The notes below the pieces were generated by a model that saw only the letters and a program-made list of their open reading frames with translations, searched no databases and was not told the DNA's origin. From assembly GCF_001282785.1 (NCBI RefSeq), contig NZ_CVUA01000001.1:682001-746000 (forward strand): a DNA stretch of 64,000 nt, in the 5' to 3' direction. The position numbers and the translations under genes were made by a program. Positions 7,088 to 7,553 of the stretch are shown one piece after another (position 1 is the first letter of the stretch; the number at the start of each line of letters is the position of its first letter). This DNA is from Halolamina sediminis (GTDB lineage Archaea > Halobacteriota > Halobacteria > Halobacteriales > Haloferacaceae).

Positions 7088-7182
7088 GGCTGTGGCTGGG
7101 TGGGGGACTGAGAAAGGCGTATCGGAGCGGTTCGTCGGGGCGGCGTCGGTGAGCGGTTCCCAGCGACTAGAAACCATAACGA

Positions 7183-7198
7183 ACATTAATGTAGTATC
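7183..7198 (+). promoter_or_regulatory. TATA-like box before pentapeptide-like gene
   Basis: ACATTAATGTAGTATC is the only AT-rich stretch in the spacer and lies about 25 nt before the ATG at 7215. It contains the palindrome ACATTAATGT, which could also serve as a regulator site for the divergent HTH gene. Confidence 0.45.
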
Positions 7199-7214
7199 CG
7201 CCGGCTTCTCCCGT

Positions 7215-7553
7215 ATGGACCTCGATTGGCAGGATTCCGGTGGGTACGTGGCGATCGGCCTGTTGGCGATCGTGCTGGTACTGACGCTGGCGGGCGTCGA
7301 AACGATCGCGGGGTACGAACTGTTAGCCGCCGGGCAATCGGCGTTCGGGTTCCTCGCCGCGGGCAACTTCAGTCTCGGCGTGTTGTCCGCCGGTATCTTC
7401 TCGGTCGGGGTGTTCTCGGTCGGGGTGTTCTCGGTCGGAATCTTCTCGATCGGGATCTTCGCCGTCGGGCCGTTCGCCTTCGGGATGTATGCAGTCGGCT
7501 TCTACGCGGCGAAACAGCTCGGTGAGTCCCCGAGCCGTGACGACTCCGACTAG
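7215..7553 (+). CDS. Pentapeptide-periodic glycine membrane protein
   Basis: A 112-residue protein of unknown function. Residues 11-37 form a conventional hydrophobic transmembrane segment. From residue 40 to 95 a glycine recurs at exactly every fifth position (40, 45, 50 and so on to 95), giving eleven tandem units of pattern x-[FLY]-[SA]-x-G, such as IFSVG and VFSVG. The spacing recalls pentapeptide-repeat right-handed beta-helices, but the usual Asp/Asn is absent and the outward faces are hydrophobic. The tail is short and charged. ATG 7215 fits a TATA-like box 25 nt upstream. It is convergent with the NYN gene. Confidence 0.72.
   Translation: MDLDWQDSGGYVAIGLLAIVLVLTLAGVETIAGYELLAAGQSAFGFLAAGNFSLGVLSAGIFSVGVFSVGVFSVGIFSIGIFAVGPFAFGMYAVGFYAAKQLGESPSRDDSD

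Follow-up and report, generated by a model that had tools for sequence, protein, structure and literature searches.

A conserved archaeal family of small membrane proteins with twelve apolar pentapeptide units, possibly a lipid-embedded solenoid

For the tandem five-residue repeats of the PF01469 family (Pentapeptide_2), modelling has given a beta-solenoid in which each coil takes 10 residues (PMC9663297), a fold on which four methods concur (PMC11795689). Among the canonical pentapeptide-repeat proteins of PF00805 (MfpA, Qnr, HglK), HglK couples transmembrane segments to its repeat (PMC8145042), as does the protein described here. This protein is encoded within a 64,000-nucleotide stretch of DNA from Halolamina sediminis, referred to below as the window. 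It passed no Pfam cut-off and had no match in NCBIfam or PHROGs, and no solved structure was found for it in the PDB by sequence or profile.

The gene occupies positions 7215..7553 of the + strand and encodes 112 amino acids plus a stop codon, with a transmembrane helix followed by an apolar repeat of 12 × 5 residues; the reading frame, coordinates and length given in the original prediction were correct. The orthologues share the ATG start. Their differences per site at codon positions 1, 2 and 3 were 0.27, 0.15 and 0.57, and the mean pN was 0.21 versus a pS of 0.67. Since third codon positions were the most divergent and pN was far below pS, 7215..7553 is a real gene of the + strand, and comparison of the orthologous sequences indicates that it is under strong purifying selection. 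Antisense coding was rejected: the opposite strand is partly open, and both the codon-position differences and the pN/pS values assign the gene to the + strand. The frame of an HTH regulator on the minus strand extends open upstream into the antisense of the repeat gene (7090-7366), giving an ORF of 328 aa that reaches 7366 and is probably a shadow ORF. An AT-rich stretch ~20-45 nt 5′ of the ATG (7170..7214, + strand) may be a promoter of a short-leader transcript; a bacterial promoter scan gave no match, a null result expected in an archaeon. The gene is single-copy in the 2.84 Mb haloarchaeal genome.

A single transmembrane helix ahead of the repeat had been predicted, and was found at residues 10-28 (TM1, GYVAIGLLAIVLVLTLAGV; 7242..7298, + strand), with KD window values of up to 2.36. 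It is followed by a short acidic loop, ETIAGYELLAA (residues 29-39; 7299..7331, + strand), whose E29 was retained in 17/17 rows of alignment A2; the wider loop is nearly free of K and R across 24 sequences, in which one R only was found. The repeat itself (residues 40-99; 7332..7511, + strand) has the unit consensus G-x-[FLY]-[SA]-x and consists of GQSAF, GFLAA, GNFSL, GVLSA, GIFSV and GVFSV (units 1-6), and GVFSV, GIFSI, GIFAV, GPFAF, GMYAV and GFYAA (units 7-12). Glycine is present at residues 40, 45, 50 and onward to 95, that is, at 12 consecutive positions with a spacing of five over a 56-residue span, exactly as first described, while the longest period-5 glycine run in 200,000 shufflings of residues 34-112 was 7. 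The tandem units of the original prediction were likewise present, and their number had to be corrected from eleven (from residue 41) to twelve, because unit 1 (GQSAF) and units 11-12 (GMYAV, GFYAA) are in register. The polar C-terminal tail (residues 100-112; 7512..7550, + strand) is basic in many orthologues (e.g. QRHIRSSE, KKHLRK).

Fewer than half of the genomes of the order have a full-length relative, with 58-82% identity. Two motifs of the family were used to scan 84,980 species of bacteria and archaea, a search blind to relatives without those motifs; of the 17 loci identified, 15 were haloarchaeal, 2 were from Methanophagales and none was bacterial. When the phylum was searched with a profile, more distant members came to light: L044 and L045, from a single genus of family f19, and L046, from family f37, whose frame is broken. 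The distribution of orthologues is patchy, covering Halobacteria, Methanophagales (ANME-1) and one genus of another family in the phylum; the gene was present in 3/51 genomes of the Methanophagales family, and full-length matches occurred in 2/112 f19 genomes. Twelve units were counted in 24/24 aligned members, and the strict five-residue period, which the original prediction had proposed to look for in homologues, was retained, with one glycine substituted in unit 1 of Halopenitus. In a tree of limited resolution, the two f19 members and the two from Methanophagales were separate from the haloarchaea. Judged from these sequences, the family is conserved across distantly related archaea, and it is unnamed in the libraries searched.

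Several copies were observed in other states. In Halorientalis regularis (L031, 5001-5306), which is outside the 24-member set, three units have been lost in-frame, leaving nine instead of twelve, and the syntenic copy of H. pallida (L028) has twelve units, carries F-to-S and F-to-V changes and lacks an ATG where the gene usually begins; the repeat gene is possibly decaying in this lineage. The reading frame of L046 (G318) breaks between TM1 and the repeat, either because the gene is broken or through an error in sequencing. G148 has two full-length copies of close similarity (L003 and L019), ~1.4 Mb apart. One Methanophagales copy (L041 in G314, 1234-2274) lies where its contig ends, close to an ORF which by eye resembles an IS66-type transposase, and may be mobile. 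Low-scoring matches in Methanosarcina-like genomes were discarded as low-complexity or antisense frames.

In the window, the repeat gene is neighbored by genes for an HTH regulator, an NYN-domain protein, a CPxCG zinc-finger protein and a subtilase. A comparison of neighborhoods across genera revealed no neighboring gene common between genera, and an operon logic was rejected, as the remaining neighbor matches represented either the opposite strand of the repeat gene itself or within-genus synteny. A viral origin was rejected as well, since the single related IMG/VR match and seven pattern matches look like chance reading frames. Under the BLAST low-complexity filter, which limits such searches, tblastn against phages and plasmids returned nothing, and a relative used as the query retrieved, at E values of up to 10, no more than weak matches in copper resistance proteins.

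For residues 40-99, a solenoid embedded in lipid is slightly favored over a helical hairpin, with a probability of roughly 0.38. The hairpin is itself a serious candidate, though still short of an even chance: the protein would be an ordinary alpha-helical one, in which TM1 is followed by two hydrophobic helices (~residues 52-72 and 78-98), the small residues (G, S, A) permit tight helix packing or oligomers, and the five-residue period is left over from growth of the gene through duplication of units and is maintained by the demands of packing. The variability among 24 homologues bears on both readings: its power is 0.24 at a rotation of 144 degrees per residue, equivalent to a period of 2.5 residues, and does not exceed 0.02 in the helix band near 100 degrees. 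The mean entropy by unit position was 0.02 (G), 1.08 (x), 0.32 (F), 0.56 (S/A) and 1.14 (x). Such variability, locked to the unit, implies that the units are equivalent, as expected of a solenoid. In contrast, an alpha-helix rotates by 140 degrees per unit, so that G and F would spiral through all faces and the units would not be equivalent; the missing 3.6-residue component and the lack of a consistent helix face from a glycine at each fifth residue both count against the hairpin.

The composition of the repeat was also informative. Units 4-11 contain no D, E, K, R, H, N or Q in 24/24 sequences, polar residues are confined to units 1 and 3, and Tyr to units 2, 11 and 12. The repeat is therefore wholly apolar between polar ends, in agreement with the hydrophobic faces originally proposed. 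Its hydropathy forms one hump without a central dip, and the marks of a hairpin turn (a hydropathy dip, a polar residue or a turn motif) were sought in the 24 sequences and none was found. An apolar middle, a single hump and polar or Tyr-containing ends would suit one object with two ends better than a hairpin. On the other hand, ~48 residues free of D/E/K/R/H/N/Q correspond to about two transmembrane lengths, P86, which occurs in one haloarchaeal clade, is tolerable as a kink, and proteins of the cytoplasmic membrane are nearly all helical; these three points count for the hairpin. On an additive insertion-energy scale, TM1 scored −1.4, and the repeat was marginal as a transmembrane helix, with a best window mean of 0.0 versus −2.3 for TM1, which weakens the hairpin. 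Leu makes up 4% of the repeat, compared to 16% of the transmembrane segments of the window proteins. The constant unit number, the poor transmembrane-helix energy and the scarcity of Leu were all counted for the solenoid, which is also fitted by the unit-locked variability, the absence of a 3.6-residue signal and the unbroken apolar stretch with its single hump.

Structure prediction pointed in another direction. With a 17-sequence alignment, AlphaFold2 produced a model with a pLDDT of 63 and a pTM of 0.25, comprising helices at residues 5-33 (the helix of TM1), 36-48 and 52-103, while the isolated repeat without an alignment was predicted as a single 63-residue helix with a pLDDT of 89.8. Both runs, one of low confidence and the other alignment-free, gave helix with no strand and no turn. 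The helix in itself favors the hairpin; its turnless form, an uninterrupted rod of 52 or 63 residues (~80-95 Å), speaks against it. Such a rod is too long for one crossing and lacks the turn of a hairpin, and so is not a credible model of the membrane protein. AlphaFold2 is said to over-predict beta-solenoids for repeats (PMC11795689), and its helical output therefore weighs against the solenoid; it is also said to assign high confidence, for one and the same sequence, sometimes to a solenoid as well as to a long helix (PMC11795689). Of the membrane solenoid put forward in the original prediction, the apolarity and the period were supported, and the fold itself is still a proposal, for which AlphaFold2 gave helices instead. 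Two outcomes together would have refuted it, loss of the period in homologues and confident ordinary transmembrane helices; the period was kept and the predicted helices were rods of 52 or 63 residues, not ordinary transmembrane helices, so that the solenoid is neither disproved nor established.

As a lipid-embedded solenoid, the protein would represent a family of small integral membrane proteins of archaea, each encoded by a lone gene. Residues 10-28 would form an ordinary transmembrane helix, and each five-residue unit of the solenoid would lie in an identical environment, with G and F/L/Y directed inward and the S/A and aliphatic positions facing lipid or neighboring chains. The similarity of units at lag 2, at unit position 5 (p 0.006; 0.066 familywise over 15 tests), is a borderline hint of a ten-residue, two-unit coil, while a 20-residue coil was rejected, as units four apart showed no similarity above chance. 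The likeliest coil of two units (10 residues) would give six coils of ~4.8 Å, or ~29 Å; the closeness of this value to the bilayer thickness is arithmetic from an unproven coil and not a result. In a single crossing by the repeat, the hydrogen bonds would run parallel to the membrane normal and its two ends would lie at opposite surfaces, one end marked by Q/E/D41 and N51, the other by Y92/Y97 together with the basic tail. In this complete form, a beta-solenoid across the cytoplasmic membrane built of twelve apolar pentapeptides, two per coil in six coils and about one bilayer thick, the model is doubtful. The protein may act as a rigid membrane element, alone or as an oligomer, serving as an anchor, scaffold or pore lining. 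Several points count against the solenoid. The topology of the protein is judged on few charges, and the haloarchaeal N-termini are acidic. The nine units of L031 are unexplained by a fixed six-coil span unless this copy is decaying. Finally, we know of no beta-solenoid within a cytoplasmic membrane.

It is quite improbable that the repeat is hydrophobic and beta-rich or elastin-like, anchored by TM1 and self-assembling at the outer or inner surface into a fibre, cross-beta stack or coat. Its high V/I/F/G/S content and equivalent units would suit inter-chain stacking, and a non-integer coil count or the nine-unit copy of H. regularis would matter less, but a surface apolar throughout would be unusual anywhere outside the membrane, the unit number is otherwise constant, unlike that of most fibre-forming repeats, and elastin-type proline is missing. 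A canonical quadrilateral beta-helix of the PF00805 type, with four units per coil and faces of unusual hydrophobicity, is very improbable: the twelve units would fill exactly three coils, and by eye the PRP register can accommodate G at i-2 with F at i, but the real unit order gave no PF00805 match, units four apart are not similar, and three coils (~14 Å) are too short for the membrane.

To our knowledge, membrane-spanning proteins are either alpha-helical bundles or outer-membrane beta-barrels. A lipid-embedded short-period solenoid, if true, would be a third way across membranes, and with 112 residues the protein is small enough for quick testing. If helical, it would still be a useful hard case for structure prediction, because sequence statistics and AlphaFold2 disagree. 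Any structural or pore-lining role can only be inferred, the genomic context being uninformative on this matter.

Compared with known families, the archaeal repeat shares with PF00805 the five-residue period and one F/L per unit. No PF00805 match was obtained for the window protein or any listed relative, and when ten within-unit orders of a relative were compared with this model, two rearranged orders matched and the real one did not, which upholds the contrast with canonical pentapeptide-repeat proteins drawn from the start. In the PF00805 consensus, [STAV][DN][LF][STR]G, glycine comes two residues after L/F, whereas in the archaeal repeat it comes three after F, and D/N are missing except for N51. 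A long, canonical-looking pentapeptide-repeat protein (A-N-L-x-x) was noted at L063 (G296), on the strand opposite the match. The GLTT repeat (PF01744) has a similar G-x-x-x-x unit; the window protein scored 10.2 bits against a cut-off of 21, which was passed by several relatives (L026, L028, L032, L035, L045), although this short low-complexity model probably matches the pattern rather than ancestry.

Oleosin and caveolin are long hydrophobic hairpins with an uninterrupted apolar stretch of 40-70 residues. Compared by description, the archaeal repeat differs from them in having a strict period of five and neither a proline knot nor a central turn.

The match to Pentapeptide_2 looked a strong lead at first, and pointed to the ten-residue-coil solenoid modelled for PF01469. 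The window protein scored 14.8 bits (E 0.026) with PF01469 and the relatives listed 13.7-17.5 bits, all below the gathering cut-off of 26.4 bits, which was exceeded by no protein in the whole genome. However, L045 with scrambled unit orders gave E values of 0.0009, 0.004 and 0.021, compared to 0.004 for the real order; this lead was dropped because the match is not register-specific, and the sub-threshold scores lend no real support to the solenoid. In an f19 genome (G498), L049 is a near-perfect GLFNT repeat frame with a pattern near that of mycobacterial MPTR, and is probably simple-sequence DNA. The archaeal repeat resembles PF01469 of the mycobacterial PPE-MPTR proteins (XNXGX) in its five-residue tandem unit with G and in the fixed place of the side chain two residues before G, and is distinguished by being apolar, short (12 units) and placed after a transmembrane helix, with S/A replacing the N of PF01469.
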